Shown here piece by piece: positions 2,565-43,336 of a stretch of 64,000 nt of DNA. Within the stretch, counting starts at the first letter, position 1; the number at the start of each line of letters is the position of its first letter. Source of the stretch: Pseudomonas sp. R4-35-07 (GTDB taxonomy: Bacteria; Pseudomonadota; Gammaproteobacteria; Pseudomonadales; Pseudomonadaceae); assembly GCF_003852235.1 (NCBI RefSeq), contig NZ_CP027732.1:1426001-1490000 (forward strand). The letters are read 5' to 3'. A program made the translations under genes and the position numbers. Under the pieces are notes generated by a model. The model ran no database searches. It saw only the letters and a list, made by a program, of their open reading frames with translations, and was not told the DNA's origin.

Positions 2565-3401
2565 GTGAGTCTCACAGGTCCTGCGCAGCGAATGAGTAAA
2601 ACAAGCTTTCAGCGACTGGTGCTTGGCCTTGTCTTGAGTTCCTTACTGGCAGCCTGCTCGAGCACGCCATCCGGCGGTGCGCGGGTGGTTGACCGCACCA
2701 ATGCGGCACCGCAGAAGCCGACGGTGACCACCGGCCAATACGTCGTGCGCAAGGGCGATACGCTGTTCTCGATTGCCTTCCGTTATGGTTGGGATTACAA
2801 GGCCCTCGCAGCTCGTAACAACATTCCCGTGCCCTATACGATTCATCCGGGGCAGACAATTCGTTTCGATGGCCGCGCCGGTTCGGCGCCCACGGCAGTT
2901 GTGACAAAGTCGGGATCTTCGGCTTCTTCTTCGAGCAAAACCACGGTTATCACCAGGCCTGCAGGTACCGCCGCACCTTCGGTGGCGAGCAAGCCGGCAC
3001 CCGCGCCGTTGCCACCTGCAGGGCCGGCGCCGACCGGTTGGGGATGGCCTTCAAACGGCGTGTTAATTGGAAAATTCTCTTCAAACGGCAGTTTGAATAA
3101 AGGCATTGATATCGCCGGGGATTTGGGACAGCCTGTTTTGGCTGCGTCTGATGGGACAGTGGTGTACGCCGGGAGTGGTCTACGGGGCTACGGCGAGCTG
3201 GTCATCATCAAACACAGCGATACCTACGTCAGTGCCTACGGTCATAACCGCAGGTTGTTGGTTCGGGAGGGGCAGCAGGTCAAGGTCGGACAGACAATTG
3301 CCGAAATGGGTTCAACGGGTACAGACCGGGTGAAACTGCACTTTGAGATTCGCCGTCAAGGGAAACCTGTAGACCCACTGCAATTCCTACCCCGTCGTTG
3401 A
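2565..3401 (+). CDS. nlpD: Lipoprotein NlpD, LysM plus degenerate LytM (M23) domain
   Basis: NlpD-type proteins activate septal amidases (AmiC type) during daughter-cell separation. A GTG start at 2565 is chosen because it follows a GGGAGCGG ribosome site and gives VSLTGPAQRM, close to annotated homologues; an ATG at 2592 is possible. The product has a lipoprotein signal ending LLAAC, a LysM domain (TGQYVVRKGDTLFSIAFRYGW), a low-complexity Pro/Ala/Ser linker and a C-terminal M23 fold. The zinc ligands of active LytM enzymes are missing (NKGIDIA and VKLHFEIR where catalytic enzymes have H..D and HxH), which fits an activator rather than an enzyme. In pseudomonads a main rpoS promoter lies within nlpD. 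Confidence 0.93.
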   Translation: MSLTGPAQRMSKTSFQRLVLGLVLSSLLAACSSTPSGGARVVDRTNAAPQKPTVTTGQYVVRKGDTLFSIAFRYGWDYKALAARNNIPVPYTIHPGQTIRFDGRAGSAPTAVVTKSGSSASSSSKTTVITRPAGTAAPSVASKPAPAPLPPAGPAPTGWGWPSNGVLIGKFSSNGSLNKGIDIAGDLGQPVLAASDGTVVYAGSGLRGYGELVIIKHSDTYVSAYGHNRRLLVREGQQVKVGQTIAEMGSTGTDRVKLHFEIRRQGKPVDPLQFLPRR

Positions 3402-3410
3402 TGTGTTGCC

Positions 3411-3441
3411 AGCCTGTTCCCTCACGTAGAAGGAACAGGCT
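3411..3441 (+). promoter_or_regulatory. Hairpin in the nlpD-rpoS spacer
   Basis: AGCCTGTTCC (3411-3420) pairs perfectly with GGAACAGGCT (3432-3441) around an 11-nt loop. No T-run follows, so it is not a standard terminator. It lies in the rpoS 5' leader, about 65 nt before the start codon, and could affect rpoS mRNA stability or translation. The function is inferred from position only. Confidence 0.5.
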
Positions 3442-3506
3442 CCAGCGTTGCCAAGGATAAAGGCGTCGCTTGAGCTTGAGGTCGAACTCACCAAAGGACT
3501 ATAACA

Positions 3507-4514
3507 ATGGCTCTCAGTAAAGAAGCGCCGGAGTTTGACATCGACGATGAGGTTCTCCTTATGGAGACCGGTATCGCTACGGAACCGATGTCAGATAATG
3601 AGGGGGCATCACCACCCTCAGTTCGCACCAAATCCAAAAACTCCTCCGCGTTAAAGCAACACAAGTATATTGATTACACACGGGCGCTCGACGCGACCCA
3701 GTTGTACCTCAATGAAATCGGCTTTTCCCCTCTGCTCACCCCCGAAGAAGAAGTTCATTTTGCGCGTCTGTCGCAGAAGGGCGATCCGGCTGGGCGCAAA
3801 CGCATGATTGAAAGCAACCTGCGCCTGGTGGTTAAAATCGCCCGACGCTACGTCAATCGCGGATTGTCGCTGCTGGACTTGATCGAGGAGGGCAACCTGG
3901 GCTTGATCCGGGCGGTGGAGAAGTTCGACCCTGAGCGGGGCTTTCGCTTCTCGACTTATGCCACCTGGTGGATTCGCCAGACCATCGAACGGGCGATCAT
4001 GAATCAGACCCGCACGATCCGGTTGCCGATCCATGTGGTCAAGGAGCTCAACGTGTACCTGCGGGCAGCGCGTGAGCTGACACAAAAACTCGATCATGAA
4101 CCTTCGCCTGAAGAAATCGCCAACCTGCTGGAAAAACCGGTAGGGGAGGTCAAGCGCATGCTTGGCTTGAATGAGCGGGTGTCTTCGGTCGATGTCTCGC
4201 TGGGTCCGGATTCGGATAAAACCCTGCTGGACACCCTGACAGATGATCGCCCGACAGATCCGTGCGAGCTGTTGCAGGATGATGATCTGTCTCAAAGCAT
4301 CGACCAGTGGCTGTCGGAGCTCACCGATAAGCAGCGCGAGGTGGTGATCCGCCGCTTCGGCCTGCGCGGCCATGAGAGCAGCACCCTGGAGGACGTAGGC
4401 CTGGAGATCGGCCTGACCCGTGAGCGGGTGCGGCAGATTCAGGTAGAGGGGCTCAAGCGCTTGCGCGAGATCCTCGAGAAGAATGGCTTGTCGAGTGAGT
4501 CGTTGTTTCAATAA
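3507..4514 (+). CDS. rpoS: RNA polymerase sigma factor RpoS (sigma-38)
   Basis: RpoS directs transcription of stationary-phase and general stress genes. The 335-aa protein has a variable acidic N-terminus, region 1.2 ([20 protein letters not shown]), region 2 ([30 protein letters not shown], then [19 protein letters not shown]), region 3 and the region 4 helix-turn-helix ([20 protein letters not shown]). The ATG has an AAAGGACT ribosome site. It lies 105 bp after nlpD in the conserved order. The 3' side is followed directly by a palindrome plus T-run that can terminate transcription. Confidence 0.98.
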
Positions 4515-6904: not shown

Positions 6905-9381
6905 GCGTTCCCTCTGTCCGCGACTTTTTCCAGGTCCTTGACCATCCGCGCAATGCGCTCCGAGAGTTTTTCCGAACTCAGGCTTTCGCGCATCCGCTCC
7001 ACCAGCAGCGGAAAGGCCAGGGGGGTTGGCCGCTGGATCATATGCAGGTCCAGTTGCAGCGCCGACAAGCGAAGCAATGTCTCTTCCAGGCGCTGAATGT
7101 CCAGTTCGTTGCGCAGGACTTCTTCCCCTGCCTGGGTCAGCAGCAGATTGTGCGGATCATATTGTTTGAACACTTCGAAGAACAGGCCACTGGAGGCCTG
7201 CACCTGCCGGGTGCTTTTCGGTGCACCGGGGTAACCGGCGAACACCAGCCCGGCGATGCGTGCGATTTCGCGAAAACGCCGCAACGCCAGTTCACCGGCG
7301 TTAAGGCTGGCTGCCACGTCCGTGAGCAAATCCTGTGGGCTGAGCAGCGCCTCGGTCAACACGTCGGGCCAGTGCACCTCGGTGGCGCTCAGCAATTCCA
7401 ACCCATAATCATTGACTGCAATGGAAAAGGTCACGGGTTGCTGCCGGCTGACTCGCCACGCCAGCAGACTCGCCAGCCCCAGATGCACCTGACGCCCGGC
7501 GAAGGGGTAGAGAAACAGGTGCCAGCCTTCGCGCGACTTGAGAAACTCCGCCAGCAAGTGATCACGGGTCGGCAGGCCGGACCAACGCAGTTGTGTCAGC
7601 AGCAATGGCTGCACCGCCTGCATCTCCGGGCCGTCGAAGCGACCCTGGGCCGCCGCGTCGAAGCGCTCGATCACCGCCTGCGCCAGCTCATTGGAAAGCG
7701 GCATGCGCCCGCCATTCCAGCGCGGCACGGCGGCTTTTTTCGCGGTGCTGCGGCGCACGTAGGCGGTCATGTTTTCCACGCGCACCAACTCCAGCAGGCG
7801 TCCGGCGAACAGAAAACCGTCGCCCGGCTTGAGTCGCGCAATAAAACCTTCCTCGACACTGCCGAGGTTTTTGCCGCCACCGCCCTTGCTCCAGTACTTC
7901 AGATGCATACTCGCATCGCTGACAATCGTGCCCACGCTCATGCGATGGCGGCGCGCCAGTCGGGCATCGGGAACGCGCCAGATGCCCTGTTCGTCGGGCT
8001 CTACGCGACGGTAATCCGGATAAGCGGTGAGCGACAGCCCGCCATGGCGCACAAAGGCCAGGGCCCAGGTCCAATCGGCGTCGGTAAGATCGCGATAGGC
8101 CCAGGCCCCGCGGACCTCCGCCAGCAGCGCATCCGGAGTAAACCCGCCGCCCAGGGCCATGCTGACCAGATGTTGCACCAGCACATCCAAGGGTTTGTGG
8201 GGCGATTCGCGGGCTTCGATGCGTCGCTGGGCAATCGCATCCTTTGCGGCGGCGGCTTCCACCAGCTCCAGGCTGTGGGTTGGCACCAGGGTCACCCGTG
8301 ATGGCCGCCCCGGTGCATGCCCCGAGCGGCCGGCACGTTGCATCAGGCGCGCCACACCTTTGGCCGAGCCGATCTGCAACACCCGCTCCACCGGCAGGAA
8401 ATCCACGCCCAGGTCCAGGCTGGAGGTGCACACCACCGCCTTGAGTTGGCCGTCTTTGAGCGCACGTTCCACCCAGTCCCGGGTCTCGCGCGACAGCGAA
8501 CCGTGATGCAGCGCAATCAGGCCGGCCCACTCCGGCCTGGCCTCCAGCAGCGCCTGGTACCAGATTTCCGACTGCGCCCGGGTATTGGTGAACACCAGGC
8601 AACTGCTGCTGGCGTCTACTTCGGCCACCACTTGCGGCAGCATTTTCAAACCGATATGGCCGGCCCAGGGAAAGCGTTCGGCGATGGGCGGCAGCAGTGT
8701 GTCAACCAGCAACTGTTTGGGCGATTGCCCCTGCACATTGACGCCGCCACCCTGTGGGACCAATACATCCAGCGCGTGGGCCTGATTGCCCAAGGTCGCC
8801 GAAATACCCCACACCAGCAAGTCGGGATGCCAGCGTCGCAGCCGTGCCAACGCCAGTTGCAGTTGCACACCGCGCTTATTGCCGATCAGTTCATGCCATT
8901 CGTCCACCACCACCATGCGCAGATGCGCCAGGCTGACCTCACTGTCGGCGCGCGCAAGCATCAGCGTCAGGCTTTCCGGGGTGGTAATCAGCGCTGTGGG
9001 CTGGCGGCGGGTCTGACGGGCGCGTTCGCCGCTGCTGGTGTCGCCCGTGCGCAGGCCAACGCTCCAGGGGATCTGCAAGGCCGCCAGCGGCGCCTCAAGC
9101 GCGCGTGCGGTGTCGGCGGCCAAGGCGCGCATCGGTGTGATCCACAATACGGTCAGTGGTTCGGCCGGCGCCTTGCGCTTGCCGGTAGCGGGCGGGCGCG
9201 TGATGGCGAAACGATTGAGGGCAGCGAACCACAGCGCGTAGGTTTTACCCGCGCCGGTACTCGCATGCAGCAAGCCGGATTGGCCGTCCTTGACGGCCTT
9301 CCACACTTCTTTCTGGAATGCGAACGCACGCCAGCCACGGGTGGCAAACCATTGTTTTGCGAAGTGGACGGGTTTTGCCAT
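6901..9381 (-). CDS. Ligase-associated Lhr-Core DEXH-box DNA helicase
   Basis: An 826-aa superfamily 2 helicase, the length of Lhr-Core (3'-5' ATP-dependent DNA translocase). Visible motifs: Walker A STGAGKT (41-47), DEWH box (160-163), the SAT-like motif III (GISATLGN), and motif [17 protein letters not shown]. The C-terminal part matches the winged-helix and DUF4011-type Lhr core. It overlaps pdeM by 4 bp. It presumably works with the cluster's ligase and nucleases in repair of nucleic-acid damage; the exact lesion is unknown. Confidence 0.92.
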
Positions 9382-9438: not shown

Positions 9439-10203
9439 TTACTTCAAGTTGCCGCTCAAAAACTGCTGCAGGCGCTCGCTCTTCGGATTGCCCAGCACGT
9501 CCGCCGGCGCACCTTGCTCTTCCACCCGGCCTTGATGCAGGAACAGCACCTGGCTGGAAACCTTGCGCGCAAAGCTCATTTCGTGGGTCACCATGATCAT
9601 GGTGCGGCCTTCTTCTGCCAGGCCCTGAATCACCTTCAACACTTCACCGACCAACTCCGGGTCCAGTGCCGAGGTGGGTTCGTCGAACAGCATCACCTCG
9701 GGCTCCATCGCCAATGCGCGGGCAATCGCTACCCGTTGCTGCTGGCCGCCAGACAGGAATGCCGGGTATTGATCGGCCACCCGCGCGGGTAGGCCGACTT
9801 TGTCCAGGTAGCGCCGGGCGCGGTCTTCGGCGCCTTTCTTGCTGCACCCCAGCACCCGGCGCGGGGCCATGGTGATGTTTTCCAGCACGCTCATATGGCT
9901 CCACAGGTTGAAGTGCTGGAAGACCATCGCCAGCCGCGTGCGCAAGCGCTGCAACTCGGCATCGTCGGCCACGCGCATGCCGTGGCGGTCGCTGACCATG
10001 CGGATGGTTTGTCCGTCCAGGGTCATGGCGCCGTCGTTGGGCGTTTCCAGGAAGTTGATGCAGCGCAGGAAGGTGCTCTTGCCCGAGCCGCTGGCGCCGA
10101 TCAGGCTGATCACGTCACCGGTCTTGGCCTTGAGCGAGACACCTTTGAGCACTTCATTGTCGCCATAGCTTTTATGCAGGCCTTCAACGGTCAATTTGTA
10201 CAT
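9439..10203 (-). CDS. Basic-amino-acid ABC transporter ATPase, HisP/AotP type
   Basis: A 254-aa cytoplasmic ABC ATPase. Walker A is GASGSGKST, the Q-loop lies in MVFQHFNLWSHM, the signature is LSGGQQQR and Walker B is VMLFDEPTSALD followed by the H-loop VTHEM. The FNLWSHM stretch is characteristic of polar/basic amino-acid importers (HisP, AotP). ATG at 10203 (MYKLTVEGLHKSYG) is preferred to upstream codons and has a GAGGA ribosome site. It is the last gene of the transporter operon. Confidence 0.92.
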   Translation of the reverse strand: MYKLTVEGLHKSYGDNEVLKGVSLKAKTGDVISLIGASGSGKSTFLRCINFLETPNDGAMTLDGQTIRMVSDRHGMRVADDAELQRLRTRLAMVFQHFNLWSHMSVLENITMAPRRVLGCSKKGAEDRARRYLDKVGLPARVADQYPAFLSGGQQQRVAIARALAMEPEVMLFDEPTSALDPELVGEVLKVIQGLAEEGRTMIMVTHEMSFARKVSSQVLFLHQGRVEEQGAPADVLGNPKSERLQQFLSGNLK

Positions 10204-10216
10204 GGGGCGTGCATCC

Positions 10217-34773: not shown

Positions 34774-36195
34774 CCAGCCCTTTCAAGGTCTTTTGATTTT
34801 AGCGGCCTTGAGCACCCGATCCGTCGACACATGGGCATTCGCGGCTTTGCCTTCCAGCCATTCCTTGGGTTTAGGCACCTTCGGCCCTCGCTTGCTCTTG
34901 ACGACCGCTTTGGGCTGGATATTTCGAGCAAGTGCAAGCAGATATTGAGCCAGCCCCGCTGCGGGGATAGGGATGGATAAATATTCTGGCAAGGCTATTT
35001 GCATTCCCTCGTAACCGCTGCGTACCTGCACCGTCAGGTGGAAAATCGATGCCTCCCAATCGTCGGGCAAAGTCTGGCGATGAGCCTGCTCGACGCTGCG
35101 TTTGAGCACGGCCAGAACGTTGTAAGCCAACACGGCTGATGCAAATCCCAACAGGGCTGCTTTAGGGTTGCCCAAGGTTTCGATTTCACTGTCCAACACC
35201 GCTTCCAGGCGCTGGAACATCCCTTCGATGCTCCAACGACGGCGGTACAAATCGGCGATTTGCTCAGCACTGATAGAGTCGGGCAAGTTGCTCCAGAACA
35301 GCAGCGTGGTGTCGCCGGATTCGGTGGGGTTTTGCAGGCTCAGTTCGACTCGCCGCCACTGGCGTCCACCTTTTACTTCGATGATTTGCTCACGCACGCT
35401 GCCTGCCGCGACCGCAACAGGCAGCTGCCAGTCGCTTTCCTTAAGCAGGCGTGGATGTTTGCTCTGTTCGCGAATGATGAACGAGGCCCCGGTATCTTCG
35501 CAGGCCTCCATGACTGGGAGCGTGCAGTAGAGTCGGTCAGCCATCCACAGTTGTCCCGCACAGGCCTTTTCCAGCAACGGCAGCACGCTGACGCGTTCGC
35601 TGGCATAGGCATCTTCACAAGGCTGAAGATCAACGACCTGGTCCAGATCGGGGTCGTAAACCACAACGGAAAAACCAGGCCGGGCGGCGCCTCGTTCACG
35701 GCGCAAAGCGCCCAGACGCTTTTCGCTGGAAGGCAGGTGGTTACCGTCAACGACCCGTAGTTGCCAACCAGGCAAAATGGCTGTGTGCCCCAGTTCTTTT
35801 ATCGTCGGTGCCAAACGCTCTGCGCTACCGGTGACCAGGGCGCGCAGTAGCGCAGGCTCTGTACGACTGACCTTGTCATACAGCGCCGCCAAGCTGACAG
35901 GAAGATCTTCCATCTGTCGCGCGGCGGCATGCAGCGAAGGTCGCAAACCCAATGAAACAAGGGACATCAGTTCAACGATGGTTGAAAACAAAAGCTCACG
36001 TGGGTACTGCCGCTGACGGTGCTCTTCGAACACCTGATCGACCCATTCAGCAGGAACAGCCTGCTCCAATATCACTCTGGTCATGACACTGGCTGGCGCT
36101 TTTTTCTCAAACCGCGCTAGAACCTCTGCCCACATTGCTTTCGTCACCCTGATCGGAGTTTTGCGGGATTTTATCAAAGACCTTGAAAGGGCTGG
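34774..36195 (-). mobile_element. Complete IS4-family insertion sequence
   Basis: The element is 1422 bp with 20-bp perfect terminal inverted repeats CCAGCCCTTTCAAGGTCTTT (34774-34793, and its complement at 36176-36195). It is flanked on both sides by a 9-bp direct repeat CTCTTACAG (34765-34773 and 36196-36204), the target duplication. It carries one transposase gene. Joining the flanks at one target copy restores the continuous sequence GGTTCCGCTCTTACAGCGGG, a common non-coding pseudomonad repeat. Confidence 0.95.
34783..36177 (-). CDS. IS4-family DDE transposase
   Basis: A 464-aa transposase. The DDE residues are visible in VVDGNHLPSSEKR (first Asp), MADRLYC (second Asp) and the YRRRWSIEGMFQRLE signature carrying the Glu. 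Its stop lies inside the left inverted repeat. The annotated TTG start (MIKSRKTPIRV) lies inside the right inverted repeat, with an unfavourable ribosome site only 3 bp away; a downstream ATG at 36135 (MWAEVLARFEKK) is a plausible alternative. The frame is intact, so the element may be active. Confidence 0.93.
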   Translation of the reverse strand: MIKSRKTPIRVTKAMWAEVLARFEKKAPASVMTRVILEQAVPAEWVDQVFEEHRQRQYPRELLFSTIVELMSLVSLGLRPSLHAAARQMEDLPVSLAALYDKVSRTEPALLRALVTGSAERLAPTIKELGHTAILPGWQLRVVDGNHLPSSEKRLGALRRERGAARPGFSVVVYDPDLDQVVDLQPCEDAYASERVSVLPLLEKACAGQLWMADRLYCTLPVMEACEDTGASFIIREQSKHPRLLKESDWQLPVAVAAGSVREQIIEVKGGRQWRRVELSLQNPTESGDTTLLFWSNLPDSISAEQIADLYRRRWSIEGMFQRLEAVLDSEIETLGNPKAALLGFASAVLAYNVLAVLKRSVEQAHRQTLPDDWEASIFHLTVQVRSGYEGMQIALPEYLSIPIPAAGLAQYLLALARNIQPKAVVKSKRGPKVPKPKEWLEGKAANAHVSTDRVLKAAKIKRP

Positions 36196-39620: not shown

Positions 39621-39724
39621 CGTGCTGCTCCTTCAGGGGGTGGGTGAAGGTTGAGTCTAGGGTGGCTTTTTCAGCGGATAAACCTGCTAATAGGCAACCT
39701 TTGGTTTTCAGTTGGAAACAATCC

Positions 39725-40642
39725 ATGAGCGAAATGGATGACTTGGCGGCCTTCGCGGTGTTGATCGAAGCCGGCAGTTTCACCGTGGCGTCGGAGCAAC
39801 TGGGGTGCAGCAAGGGCCAATTGTCCAAGCGAATCAGCCAGCTCGAAGCGCAGTACGCCGTGGTGCTGTTGCATCGCACCACGCGCAAGCTGAGCCTGAC
39901 CGCCGCAGGCGCGGCCTTGCTGCCCCAGGCACAGGCGCTGGTGGTGCAAGTGGAGCGTGCGCGTCAGGCTTTGGCCCGACTCAAGGATGATTTGGCCGGG
40001 CCAGTACGTATGACGGTTCCGGTGTCATTGGGAGAAACCTTCTTCGATGGCTTGTTGCTGGAATTTTCCAAGCACTACCCACAGGTGCAGATCGAACTGG
40101 AGCTCAATAACAACTATCGTGATCTGGCGCGGGATGGCTTCGATCTGGGCGTACGCTCGGGTGCCATCGAGAATGAGCGCCTGGTGATCAAGCCGCTGCT
40201 GGCCTGGCACGAGATGACCTGCGCCAGTCCGGCCTATCTGGAACAGCACGGTGAACCGCTGCATCCGGCGGAGCTGGCGGGCCATACCTGTTTGCTCAAC
40301 AGTCACTACAGCGGCCGCGAGGAGTGGCTGTACCACCAGCAGCATGAGCTGTTGCGGGTGCGGGTCAGTGGCACTTTCGCGTCCAATCACTACAACCTCT
40401 TGAAGAAGGCCGCATTGGTGGGCGCCGGTATCGCGCGCCTGCCGTCCTACCTGCTACCGACGGAATTGGCGGAGGGTCGATTGCGCTGGCTGCTGCGCGA
40501 TTATCAAACGCGCAGCCAGCCGATGTACCTGGTGCATCCCTATCAAGGTGGCCTGCCGCGGCGCACCCAGGTACTGGCCGACTATTTGGTGGACTGGTTC
40601 AAGCGCAGCGGCGCGGCCCTGGACCGTCTTCAGCGGGAGTGA
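39725..40642 (+). CDS. LysR-family transcriptional regulator
   Basis: A 305-aa LTTR with an N-terminal winged helix (FAVLIEAGSFTVASEQLGCSKGQLSKRISQLEAQYAVVLLHRTTRKLSLT) and a C-terminal effector domain. ATG at 39725 begins MSEMDDLAAF, as in homologues. The gene probably controls the divergent SDR. Its 3' end overlaps the DoxX gene's 3' end by 13 bp in convergent orientation. Confidence 0.93.
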   Translation: MSEMDDLAAFAVLIEAGSFTVASEQLGCSKGQLSKRISQLEAQYAVVLLHRTTRKLSLTAAGAALLPQAQALVVQVERARQALARLKDDLAGPVRMTVPVSLGETFFDGLLLEFSKHYPQVQIELELNNNYRDLARDGFDLGVRSGAIENERLVIKPLLAWHEMTCASPAYLEQHGEPLHPAELAGHTCLLNSHYSGREEWLYHQQHELLRVRVSGTFASNHYNLLKKAALVGAGIARLPSYLLPTELAEGRLRWLLRDYQTRSQPMYLVHPYQGGLPRRTQVLADYLVDWFKRSGAALDRLQRE

Positions 40643-41115
40643 CGGGCGATCCAGTGGTCGATGGACAGCCGGCCCGGGCCCTTGGCCACCAGCAGCAGTA
40701 ACAGCGCGATCCAGGTGCCATGGGTCGGGTAGGCGTCCGGATAGACAAACAACTGAATGGTCAGGGTCATGCCGATCAAGGCAAGGGCCGAGAATCGCGT
40801 GGCGAATCCCAGCAGGATCAGCACCGGGAAAAAGTGCTCGGCAAACGCTGCCAGGTGCGCGGCGACTTCGGGTGACAACAGCGGCACATGGTATTCGCTG
40901 CGAAATAACGGCAAGGTCGAGGCGGCCAGTTTGGGGGCGCCGAGTTGGAAGGTGCCGCTGATCAGATCAATGGCAAACCCTTCGACTTTGGTTTGTCCGG
41001 ATTTCCAGAACACCGCCGCGATAGAGAAGCGCGCGATAAAGGCGATCAGGCTGTAGGGAATTTTTTCAAAAAGTGCGATGGCCTGTTTCAGCAGGCTGGC
41101 GGCGGAATTGTTCAT
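40630..41115 (-). CDS. DoxX-family membrane protein of the bufferin operon
   Basis: A 161-aa membrane protein with four predicted transmembrane segments (RFSIAAVFWKSGQTKVEG, HFFPVLILLGFATRFSALALIGM and on), the DoxX pattern. The ATG at 41115 ([19 protein letters not shown]) overlaps the previous gene by 4 bp. DoxX proteins are regular companions of DUF2282/DUF692/DUF2063 operons; the role of this one in peptide maturation or electron supply is inferred. Confidence 0.88.
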   Translation of the reverse strand: MNNSAASLLKQAIALFEKIPYSLIAFIARFSIAAVFWKSGQTKVEGFAIDLISGTFQLGAPKLAASTLPLFRSEYHVPLLSPEVAAHLAAFAEHFFPVLILLGFATRFSALALIGMTLTIQLFVYPDAYPTHGTWIALLLLLVAKGPGRLSIDHWIARHSR

Positions 41116-41888
41116 GGCGATACCTTGGGTTCCAGGTGTAAATGAGTAATGGCGTCGTGGCTGATCAACAGCGTCAGGCACCGATGCAGATCGAATTCGG
41201 AGGAGGCCTGCAAGGCATGCTCCACCGCCATCTCCAGTCTCGCGCCTTGGTTCAGGCAGTTGATAAAGGCCACCGAGCCGCTGTCGATGACGAAGACCTT
41301 GACCGCCAACCCGTGGCGCAACACCAGCGCGTTCTGGGCAGGCCACGGGGTCAAGCCAGCGAGGTCGCCGTCCGCCTGGTGCGCGGCCCATACCGTCACG
41401 ACCGCGTAAGCAGAGCTCAAGGTGGCGAGCGATGGATGCAGCGTCAGGCTCAACCGCGCTACGCCTGATTGACCTTGCAGATGCTGGAGAACAGCGTGCT
41501 GGCACAGCGCCGGAATGTCGGGCGCGTGATAAGCACGCACCCGCAGGCGCTCCAGCCGCGCGACATCCGCCAGGTAAGGCACGCTGGCGGCCGGTGCGAA
41601 TGCCTGGATAAACTCGGCCAATGTGCTGCCGTACGCGTTGATCAGCGGGCTGGTGGGCGGGTTGTCGTGGACGAAAACGCCAGCCATGGCGCGGAAAAAC
41701 TCATCGCCCACCAGCTGCAGCGTCACGGGATAACTGGCCGCCAGGGCATTGATCAACGAACTGTGGACGTTATTGCGATACACCGCAAAGCGGCTGGCGG
41801 GGTCGGCGCCGTTACTGCTGAACACCCCCTCCGGGCAGGAACCGTGCGCCGCGAGCAGGGCGTTGGTGAACGCGTCCTGAAGGCTCAT
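41112..41888 (-). CDS. DUF2063 partner protein of the MNIO enzyme (BufC-like)
   Basis: A 258-aa DUF2063 protein. N-terminal half includes [23 protein letters not shown], the family hallmark. DUF2063 proteins form a heterodimer with DUF692 MNIO enzymes and help recognise the precursor peptide's leader. ATG at 41888 ([12 protein letters not shown]) overlaps bufB's end by 4 bp, so the two subunits are translationally coupled. Confidence 0.9.
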
Positions 41889-42763
41889 GACATCACCTGC
41901 GACAAATACCATTCGGCGTGCCTGGCCTCGGCGTGCAGCGTGCTGAAGCTCGGCACCTGGTTATCCCGTTCGATCAGCGTGGCGACCGGCCCCGTGCGTT
42001 TGAGCAACTGTTCGTATAGCTGCCACACCGCAGCATCGATCGGCGCACCGTGATCATCGATAAGCAGTCTGTCGCCCAGGCTGTCGGTGTCTTCGGCAAA
42101 CCCGGCCAGATGTATCTCGCCGACGGCATGCAAAGGTAAGGCATCGATGTAGGCCAGAGGATCGCGCTGATGGTTGATGCACGACACGTAGACGTTATTC
42201 ACGTCCAGCAGCAAACCGCAGCCGGTGCGCCGAATGACTTCGTTGATGAAGTCCGCTTCGTCCAGGGTGGAGCGTTGAAATTGCACATAGGTCGACGGGT
42301 TCTCCAATAGCATCGGCCGCTTGAGCGCGCTTTGCACTTGGTCTATGTGCTCGGCTACGCGCGCCAGGGTTTGTGCATCGTAGGCCAGGGGCAGCAGGTC
42401 ATTGAGAAACACCGCGCCGTGGCTGGACCAGGCTAGGTGTTCGGAAAATGAGTGGGGTTGATAGCGTTCGATCAGCCCGGCCAACCGTGCCAGGTGCTCA
42501 GGGTTGAGCGGACCTTCGCCACCGATGGAGAGGCCCACGCCGTGCAACGACAGTGGGTAGCGTTCGCGGATCAACCCCAGGTAATGGTGAAAAGGGCCGC
42601 CGGCGACCATGTAGTTTTCGGCGTGCACTTCAAAGAAACCAATGTCTGGTGAAGAGCCGAGCACTTCAGTGAAGTGCTGGGTCTTAAGTCCCAATCCGGC
42701 CCGACGCGGCAGGCCGGATGCCTGAGCCTGGGAGACGGCTTGCAGGGATGAAAGGGTCATCAT
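41885..42763 (-). CDS. DUF692 multinuclear non-haem iron oxidase (BufB-like)
   Basis: A 292-aa TIM-barrel MNIO enzyme. Metal-ligand regions are visible: [43 protein letters not shown] and EIHLAGF. MNIO enzymes (MbnB, TglH, BufB) oxidise cysteines in precursor peptides; those paired with DUF2282 peptides have been reported to make thiooxazole-type copper-binding groups. It follows the precursor gene by 23 bp. Tandem ATGs at 42763 and 42760. Confidence 0.93.
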
Positions 42764-42786
42764 CAGTACTCAGGTCGCGCTGGGCT

Positions 42787-43083
42787 TCAGGACTTTGCGG
42801 TGAAAGCGGCTTCCTGGCCGAAACCGGTCGGCGAGGTCGTGCTTGGGGTTTTCAGGCAGGTACCGGCTGGGACCAGTTTCCAGGCGTTGGCCTGGTCCTT
42901 GGTTTTGGACGTACCGGCGCACGAGGTGCCAGCGCCGGCGGCGCAGTCGTTCTTGCCGGCCTCGGCGATACCGAAGCATTTCTGCATGTCGTCGGCAGCA
43001 TGGGCGGTGGTGGTCAGGGCGGACAGGCTCAGGGTCGAACCGAGGGCCAGGAGGAGGGCGGCAGCGGACAGTTTGGTGGTCAT
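42787..43083 (-). CDS. DUF2282 bufferin-type precursor peptide (BufA-like)
   Basis: A 98-aa exported peptide. Signal peptide [16 protein letters not shown]... with predicted cleavage after AHA (residues 27-29), then a four-cysteine core: Cys36, Cys47 (KNDC), Cys55 (GTSC) and Cys76 (AGTC), in the [13 protein letters not shown]...SCAGTSK...WKLVPAGTC pattern of DUF2282. A GGAG ribosome site precedes the ATG at 43083. It is the first gene of the four-gene operon and the likely substrate of the MNIO enzyme; modification and copper link are by family. Confidence 0.92.
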
Positions 43084-43215
43084 GGGGTATCTCCAGCAGT
43101 GGTTGAGTTGGCAAGCTTGATTGCCTGCTTGCACCACTAGAGAGAGGGGGACGAACTTCGTTACAAGCCAGCCGGAAAAAATTTAGAAAACGCGGGTTTA
43201 AGGATCACACAAAGC

Positions 43216-43310
43216 AAATGTGGGAGGGGGCTTGCCCCCGATGGCTGAGTGTCAGTCAATATAGTTATCAACTGACCCACCGCTATCGGGGGCAAGCCCC
43301 CTCCCACATT
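43216..43310. repeat. REP pair (TGTGGGAGGGGGC family), head-to-head
   Basis: AAATGTGGGAGGGGGCTTGC and complement around GATGGCTGAGTGTCAGTC and CTGACCCACCGCTATCGGG. It lies between the bufA promoter region and the livF stop codon. Confidence 0.9.
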
Positions 43311-43336
43311 GAGTACCGGTTCATCCAGCAACCGTT

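Follow-up and report, generated by a model that had tools for sequence, protein, structure and literature searches.

Results

Organization of the Buf1 operon

The window analyzed in this study, a 64,000-nucleotide stretch of the Pseudomonas sp. R4-35-07 genome (contig NZ_CP027732.1, positions 1,426,001 to 1,490,000), carries on its minus strand a four-gene operon (40630-43083) that encodes a DUF2282 precursor peptide, an MNIO enzyme, its DUF2063 partner and a DoxX protein, tightly packed behind a conserved promoter-like element (Table 1). As read from the sequence, its gene set is an ordinary representative of the Buf1 bufferins, a large and recently named family. The first-pass annotation of this DNA had placed the same four genes in this interval, and each was found there with a Pfam score above its cut-off; the bufferin-type assignment made at that time is likewise supported by the family models, the gene order and the four cysteines of the precursor. 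That annotation was silent on the strand, on the promoter-like element at 43165-43137 and on the presence of another bufferin operon at a distant genomic site, and the new part of the present analysis is the control region: a shared ECF-like promoter element with a -10 sequence unlike the ECF16/SigF consensus.

Table 1. Features of the bufferin operon and of the candidate regulator; positions are those of the window, except where C1 denotes the genome (5.84 Mb, single contig)
Feature	Position	Strand	Remarks
Putative ECF-type promoter-like element	43137..43165	-	TGTAAC 43165-43160, 17-nt spacer, CTCTAG 43142-43137, then TGG
5' leader	43084..43136	-	ends with GGAGA-type ribosome site (by eye)
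bufA1-type precursor	42787..43083	-	98 amino acids; DUF2282 PF10048 76.1 bits, cut-off 22.4
bufB-type MNIO (DUF692)	41885..42763	-	292 amino acids; Pfam MbnB_TglH_ChrH 352.2 bits, cut-off 25
bufC-type DUF2063 partner	41112..41888	-	258 amino acids from ATGA-coupled start
DoxX membrane protein	40630..41115	-	161 amino acids; PF07681 53.8 bits, cut-off 23.6
Candidate ECF sigma factor	C1:4162795-4163406	-	distant from operon; zf-HC2 anti-sigma gene directly after

The operon proteins were assigned to families with Pfam and NCBIfam profile models. The MNIO scored 387 bits against the NCBIfam 'bufferin maturase' model NF050167 (MNIO_BufB; cut-off 310) and has relatives in the PDB (3bww, 8hci, 7dz9 and 7fc0). 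The DUF2063 partner reached 88.9 bits with PF09836 (cut-off 27.2), as scored on a longer 266-amino-acid reading (41115-41912), and 34.8 bits with the HvfC model, under its cut-off of 142; the DoxX protein was similarly under the cut-off of the HvfX-family model (45 bits, cut-off 80). The overlapping or close starts noted in the first-pass annotation resolve into a 23-nt gap between the precursor stop and the MNIO start, followed by two 4-nt ATGA overlaps, of which the first places the DUF2063 start most likely at 41888, on the MNIO stop, and not at 41912, the mechanical start of the longer reading, and the second couples the DoxX start (41115) to the DUF2063 gene.

The precursor contains exactly four cysteines, at positions 36, 47, 55 and 76 as first annotated, behind a hydrophobic N-terminal stretch that we read by eye as a Sec-type signal peptide ending in AHA|A. 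Eighty loci in named genomes, fetched through the MNIO and all from Pseudomonas, are the closest relatives of the operon; a precursor was recovered by pattern in 79 of them (none in L036), and all 79, together with the window precursor, have the same 10-7-20 cysteine spacing, which argues against a chance open reading frame (ORF). In an alignment of 203 close relatives, Cys36 and Cys76 are conserved in 100% and Cys47 and Cys55 in 99.5%. A DUF2282 protein with four conserved cysteines, an adjacent bufferin-maturase MNIO, and DUF2063 and DoxX genes in the core cluster are all present, and this gene quartet agrees with the sequence-level features given for Buf1 in the description of the family (PMC12452194), as would the putative signal peptide.

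The peptide had been thought undescribed. We found no study of the peptide of this species, but the cluster itself is not new: a four-gene cluster of the same make-up in the same genus was reported in 2021 as 'Pep1' of P. fluorescens, where it is listed as a putative bacteriocin biosynthetic gene cluster (BGC), in an account of the cluster that names neither a promoter nor a regulator (PMC8719888). In NCBI or UniRef, moreover, several of the best 120 of 7159 homologues, which are hence close relatives, go under the name 'BufA1 family periplasmic bufferin-type metallophore'. According to the reports on relatives, a thiooxazole on the central cysteines and a disulfide between the outer ones were assigned for Buf1, and bufferins improve growth under copper stress (PMC12452194); 5-thiooxazole was reported on cysteines of related MNIO-DUF2063 products, and Caulobacter bufferin 1 was given the same group (PMC13097082).

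The window MNIO carries ERD followed by Asn (265-268), and the residue after ERD is also Asn in 74 pattern-scored MNIOs among the 80 Buf1 loci, Asp in BufB2 of the same genome and Phe in an oxazolin-type MNIO. Substrate classes have been reported in which Phe goes with Lys-Cys precursors and Asp with Cys-Lys precursors, with no conservation for DUF2282 precursors (PMC13097082); our residues are compatible with these classes when the site is equated by our own by-eye alignment on ERD.

A promoter-like element shared by two bufferin operons

In the aligned upstream regions of the 79 loci and the window, TGTAACG is followed at a constant distance of 16 nt by CTCTAG(T/A)GG, and we regard this element, which has one exact match in the window, as a putative ECF-type promoter. 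With up to one mismatch allowed, the extended pattern occurs twice in the whole genome, at 43165-43137 and at C1:5796706-5796737, and the reversed control not at all; TGTAAC-N17-CTCTA in exact form marks the same two sites alone, both before bufferin precursors. The second site precedes a second bufferin operon (approximately C1:5794.7-5796.7 kb) with genes for a six-cysteine precursor, an MNIO and a DUF2063 protein. The NCBI models assign the first two to BufA2 (97.5 bits, cut-off 60) and BufB (377.4 bits, cut-off 310), and the third is over the Pfam cut-off; we refer to this operon as Buf2. At locus L002, a gene resembling P-type metal ATPases by eye, with a haloacid dehalogenase domain (2739-3779, minus strand), is followed on the same strand by the Buf2 operon.

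Across 298 sampled Pseudomonas genomes, the exact pattern gave 110 matches in 84 genomes. All 110 sites, comprising 30 loci, 78 regions and the two sites of this genome, were inspected, and each lies 1-63 nt ahead of the start of a bufferin precursor ORF: 81 are in front of Buf1, 29 in front of Buf2 and none elsewhere. The downstream ORF is a four-cysteine Buf1 in 74 cases and a six-cysteine Buf2 in 29; the remaining seven are Buf1 with one extra upstream cysteine (six) and a case first read in the wrong frame and resolved by hand (one). In all 26 genomes that have two sites, one precedes Buf1 and the other Buf2, and the 58 genomes with a single site divide into 55 with Buf1 and three with Buf2. 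These sites come from related genomes and are not independent events, and it is the sites before Buf2 that form the independent part of the result, the pattern having been derived from Buf1 loci within this clade. The reversed pattern gave 21 matches in 20 of the 298 genomes. CTAG is rare, a rarity that the reversed control does not share; it is therefore the location of the sites, not their number, that carries the argument. The exact form is found in 84 of the 298 genomes and DUF2282 in 178, so that many Buf1 operons lack the exact form of the element.

Among open-license papers, we found no title or beginning of an abstract describing such a shared promoter, which is weak evidence of absence, and the word 'promoter' does not occur in the main text of the MNIO surveys PMC12452194 and PMC13097082.

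The leader that follows the element may form a stem-loop. The segment 43084-43141 has a predicted folding energy of -18.5 kcal/mol (z -1.92), a value equaled or exceeded by 6 of 200 shuffles, and the mean z of 74 distinct Buf1 leaders is about -2.5, with mononucleotide shuffles as the sole reference; from 71 leaders aligned by sequence, no consensus structure emerged. Just upstream of the promoter (43220-43330), an inverted pair of REP-like GTGGGAGGGGGCTTGCCCCC elements was seen by eye.

Comparison with the SigF system

We take the six-transmembrane DUF1109 anti-sigma factor of Caulobacter to be NrsF; the search for NrsF gave no match in the genome of strain R4-35-07, while the Caulobacter control matched. 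ECF16/SigF promoters are reported as GTAAC-N16/17-CGAA (PMC8315932, PMC3511200), and the -35 sequence of the window element equals theirs. Several other Pseudomonas Buf1 genes are preceded by TGTAACC and then CGAA, and an ECF gene adjoins DUF2282 in 10 of 30 loci of approximately 3.1 kb. Control of the present operon by an ECF16/SigF-NrsF pair was rejected on account of its CTCTAG -10 sequence and the lack of an NrsF match in the genome.

The operon thus resembles Buf1 bufferins such as Caulobacter CC3254-CC3257 and its relatives in the four conserved cysteines, in the order precursor-MNIO-DUF2063-DoxX and in an ECF-type promoter with a GTAAC -35, but it has no sigma factor gene beside it, and its promoter, with CTCTAG instead of CGAA, is common to a distant Buf2 operon. 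The arrangement as a whole has a counterpart in the Caulobacter SigF regulon as reported, in which one ECF sigma factor acting through one promoter motif controls both DUF2282-MNIO operons and a YedY-type gene; the SigF anti-sigma factor is a six-transmembrane DUF1109 protein (PMC3511200), whereas the candidate found here is another ECF, paired with a small anti-sigma factor of the zf-HC2 type.

A candidate sigma/anti-sigma pair

The genome has 17 Sigma70_r2 genes, and a pair composed of an ECF sigma factor and a zf-HC2 anti-sigma factor, with domain models over cut-off, is present far from the operon (Table 1). The anti-sigma factor is a 77-amino-acid protein (zf-HC2, 40.8 bits, cut-off 22.2) that also reaches the NCBI anti-sigma model NF052368 (64.8 bits, cut-off 50) and is weakly similar, below cut-off in both cases, to RsrA and ChrR. 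Orthologues of the candidate sigma factor (E <= 1e-30) were sought in 36 genomes hand-picked from the 298 and were found in all 16 motif-bearing genomes, in 3 of 14 without DUF2282 and in 2 of the 6 in which Buf1 has an ECF gene next to it. Two other ECFs, the weaker sigma candidates at C1:227477 and C1:3591096, gave less clear-cut distributions over the same sets (15/16, 6/14 and 3/6; 15/16, 8/14 and 4/6).

Relatives of the candidate pair lie next to MNIO operons elsewhere. On an Azotobacter chroococcum plasmid, a Buf1 operon, an ECF gene, a zf-HC2 gene and msrP stand in a row, and the closest sigma factor of our genome to this ECF is the candidate (41.8% identity; next best 28%). The P. aeruginosa plasmid pPALO11 carries genes for KAS-III, an ECF 71.1% identical to the candidate, a zf-HC2 protein, an oxazolin-type precursor, an MNIO, a DUF2063 protein, DoxX and a porin, the precursor being preceded by TGTAACG-N16-GTCCATTGG. 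In genome G251, Buf1 follows TGTAAC-N17-CTCTAA, and an ECF gene (67% identity to the Azotobacter ECF) with an anti-sigma gene is approximately 2.1 kb away. In G012, finally, MNIO, DUF2063 and DoxX genes are found 2.7 kb from the orthologous pair, the sole linked case among nine orthologue neighborhoods.

In G251 (L280), two short repeat proteins are encoded on the minus strand between the Buf1 operon and the ECF/anti-sigma pair (8952-9302 and 9668-10210): one, a possible additional MNIO substrate, is preceded by a TGTAAC site and carries NPCAAK repeats, and the other carries AEGGSDRLLE repeats. On a Stutzerimonas stutzeri plasmid (L285, 5914-6654), an ECF gene 41.8% identical to the candidate lies between merA and merD of a mercury-resistance operon, and an ECF with the same 41.8% identity is listed for three P. 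aeruginosa plasmids; another plasmid relative of the candidate stands beside a zf-HC2 gene and an endonuclease-family gene, without an MNIO.

Discussion

A proposed bufferin regulon

The exact form of the promoter marked only bufferin genes in the genomes searched and joins two unrelated precursor families in one response, and this result leads to a testable regulator and signal. We consider it probable, though by no means settled, that the Buf1 operon belongs to a bufferin regulon together with Buf2, under a zinc- or thiol-type ECF sigma/zf-HC2 anti-sigma pair, and that its product chelates copper or another thiophilic metal. If the regulator is right, it would show which stress bufferins answer in fluorescent pseudomonads, for which the labels 'bacteriocin', 'copper' and 'hypochlorite' now compete.

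By analogy with characterized relatives, cytoplasmic presentation of the precursor by the DUF2063 protein would allow the MNIO to oxidize the central Cys47 and Cys55 to 5-thiooxazoles; the modified peptide would then be exported through Sec, its outer Cys36 and Cys76 would form a disulfide, and in the periplasm it would chelate surplus copper or some other soft metal. The role in copper binding is extended from those relatives, and the sequence alone does not single out copper from another thiophilic metal or an oxidant. Transcription of the operon would depend on the distant candidate sigma factor, held by its zf-HC2 anti-sigma factor until loss of zinc from the latter, or its oxidation, frees the sigma factor; the freed sigma factor would drive both bufferin promoters, turning on the Buf1 and the six-cysteine Buf2 operons together.

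Several observations weigh against parts of this reading. The only NCBIfam precursor model matched by the window precursor is BufA2, whose cut-off it does not reach (22.6 bits, cut-off 60), and the MNIO of a Buf1 operon on the E. coli plasmid pYDC637 reads EWDS in place of ERDN, so that the specificity residue is not universal. Relaxing TGTAAC-N17-CTCTA to one mismatch gave 15 genome sites, 13 of them additional, against 66 for the reversed control; the inexact matches are therefore noise and are given no weight. The -10 of the pPALO11 promoter differs from CTCTAG, and the -10 preference is therefore unproven. The promoter itself holds no hint of copper as the signal. The co-occurrence result is confounded by phylogeny, as the genomes were hand-picked and the motif-bearing ones are probably close relatives. 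In addition, the 350 nt upstream of the candidate sigma gene contain no matching element, unlike in many autoregulated ECFs, there are no MNIO genes near it in this genome, and none were found in eight of the nine orthologue neighborhoods (G007, G008, G285, G126, G017, G033, G005 and G040).

The absence of the element upstream of the candidate and the unlinked neighborhoods also speak for an alternative in which the same operon and shared promoter are served by another sigma factor (SigX, AlgU or another ECF), or in which the element is an activator or repressor site rather than a -35/-10 pair; our co-occurrence comparison covered only three of the 17 Sigma70_r2 genes, all ECFs other than SigX and AlgU. 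Against this alternative stand the constant spacer of 17 nt, the GTAAC -35 that ECF16/SigF bufferin promoters also have, and the four places where relatives of the candidate are physically linked to MNIO operons; we regard the alternative as a serious possibility but not the probable one.

A second alternative concerns the function of the operon, which might serve mainly as a defense against thiol oxidants or reactive chlorine and bind copper only as a secondary role. The presence of msrP within the Azotobacter operon and the weak resemblance of the anti-sigma factor to RsrA point in this direction, as do the reports that an ECF16 sigma factor governs hypochlorite resistance genes in Brucella (PMC8315932) and that a DUF692 ribosomally synthesized and post-translationally modified peptide (RiPP) iModulon of P. 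aeruginosa, described without locus tags, is up with NaOCl and GlcNAc (PMC9023270). The same iModulon is, however, also up with metal micronutrients (PMC9023270), a response to gold and copper is reported for the GIG promoter of Legionella (PMC5413113), and bufferins are described as enhancing growth under copper stress (PMC12452194); a primarily oxidant-directed role seems to us a real possibility, though less likely than not. That the peptide is a secreted antimicrobial, as the antiSMASH label 'bacteriocin' for such clusters implies and as the presence of Pep1 as the strongest BGC correlate of Streptomyces scabies suppression might suggest (PMC8719888), is very improbable, because that evidence is a correlation across strains for which the report, in its account of Pep1, describes no deletion and asks for further work (PMC8719888), and because characterized relatives are described as copper-binding peptides (PMC12452194, PMC13097082).

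The possible signal and a proposed wider regulon

From the PAO1 gene order around oprO/oprP and the pPALO11 layout, we take PA3285 of P. aeruginosa to be probably the orthologue of the candidate sigma factor, beside an MNIO operon, PA3282-PA3284. In the list given for a zinc-depleted znuA mutant of P. aeruginosa, PA3282-PA3284 are up 4.1-5.0-fold and no Zur site is entered for them (PMC4542158). PA3285 itself has been classed as ECF293, and regulation by PvdS has been predicted for it (PMC8999054), a point in which P. aeruginosa differs, as it also does in that the pPALO11 neighbor is an oxazolin-type precursor and not Buf1 or Buf2. Taken together, the published data are consistent with an anti-sigma factor that senses zinc or thiols but do not prove such sensing.

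More tentatively, and with the balance slightly against it in our own judgment, we speculate that Pseudomonas has a dedicated thiooxazole-peptide regulon, in which one ECF sigma factor with a zinc/thiol anti-sigma factor would drive both Buf1 and Buf2 in this genome and, in relatives, operons of the oxazolin type. Cytoplasmic zinc loss or thiol oxidation, caused for instance by copper mismetallation or hypochlorite, would then serve as the signal in place of copper itself, and a new sigma/anti-sigma class would have replaced SigF/NrsF with the -35 sequence kept.

Neighboring genes and other bufferin loci

The two neighbors of the operon, livF and a LysR gene, are both retained in 7 of 20 Buf1 loci hand-picked from other Pseudomonas genomes. 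Judged from the layout, the convergent LysR gene (39644-40642) is less likely to be the regulator of the operon, its divergent SDR neighbor being the likelier target. Approximately 4.5 kb downstream of the operon, a minus-strand gene (34783-36177) encodes an IS4-like transposase, its translation judged by eye. Pseudomonas mandelii OWC5 (L083, 4648-8788) has precursors of both kinds within approximately 4 kb at one locus, one of them Buf1 and the other Buf2-like with six cysteines. DUF2282 matches were also obtained in 101 plasmid records, 60 of them from Escherichia, and on the E. coli IncC plasmid pYDC637 (L258, 6908-9395), which is typed as conjugative, the four-gene bufferin operon stands directly after an IS66 element.

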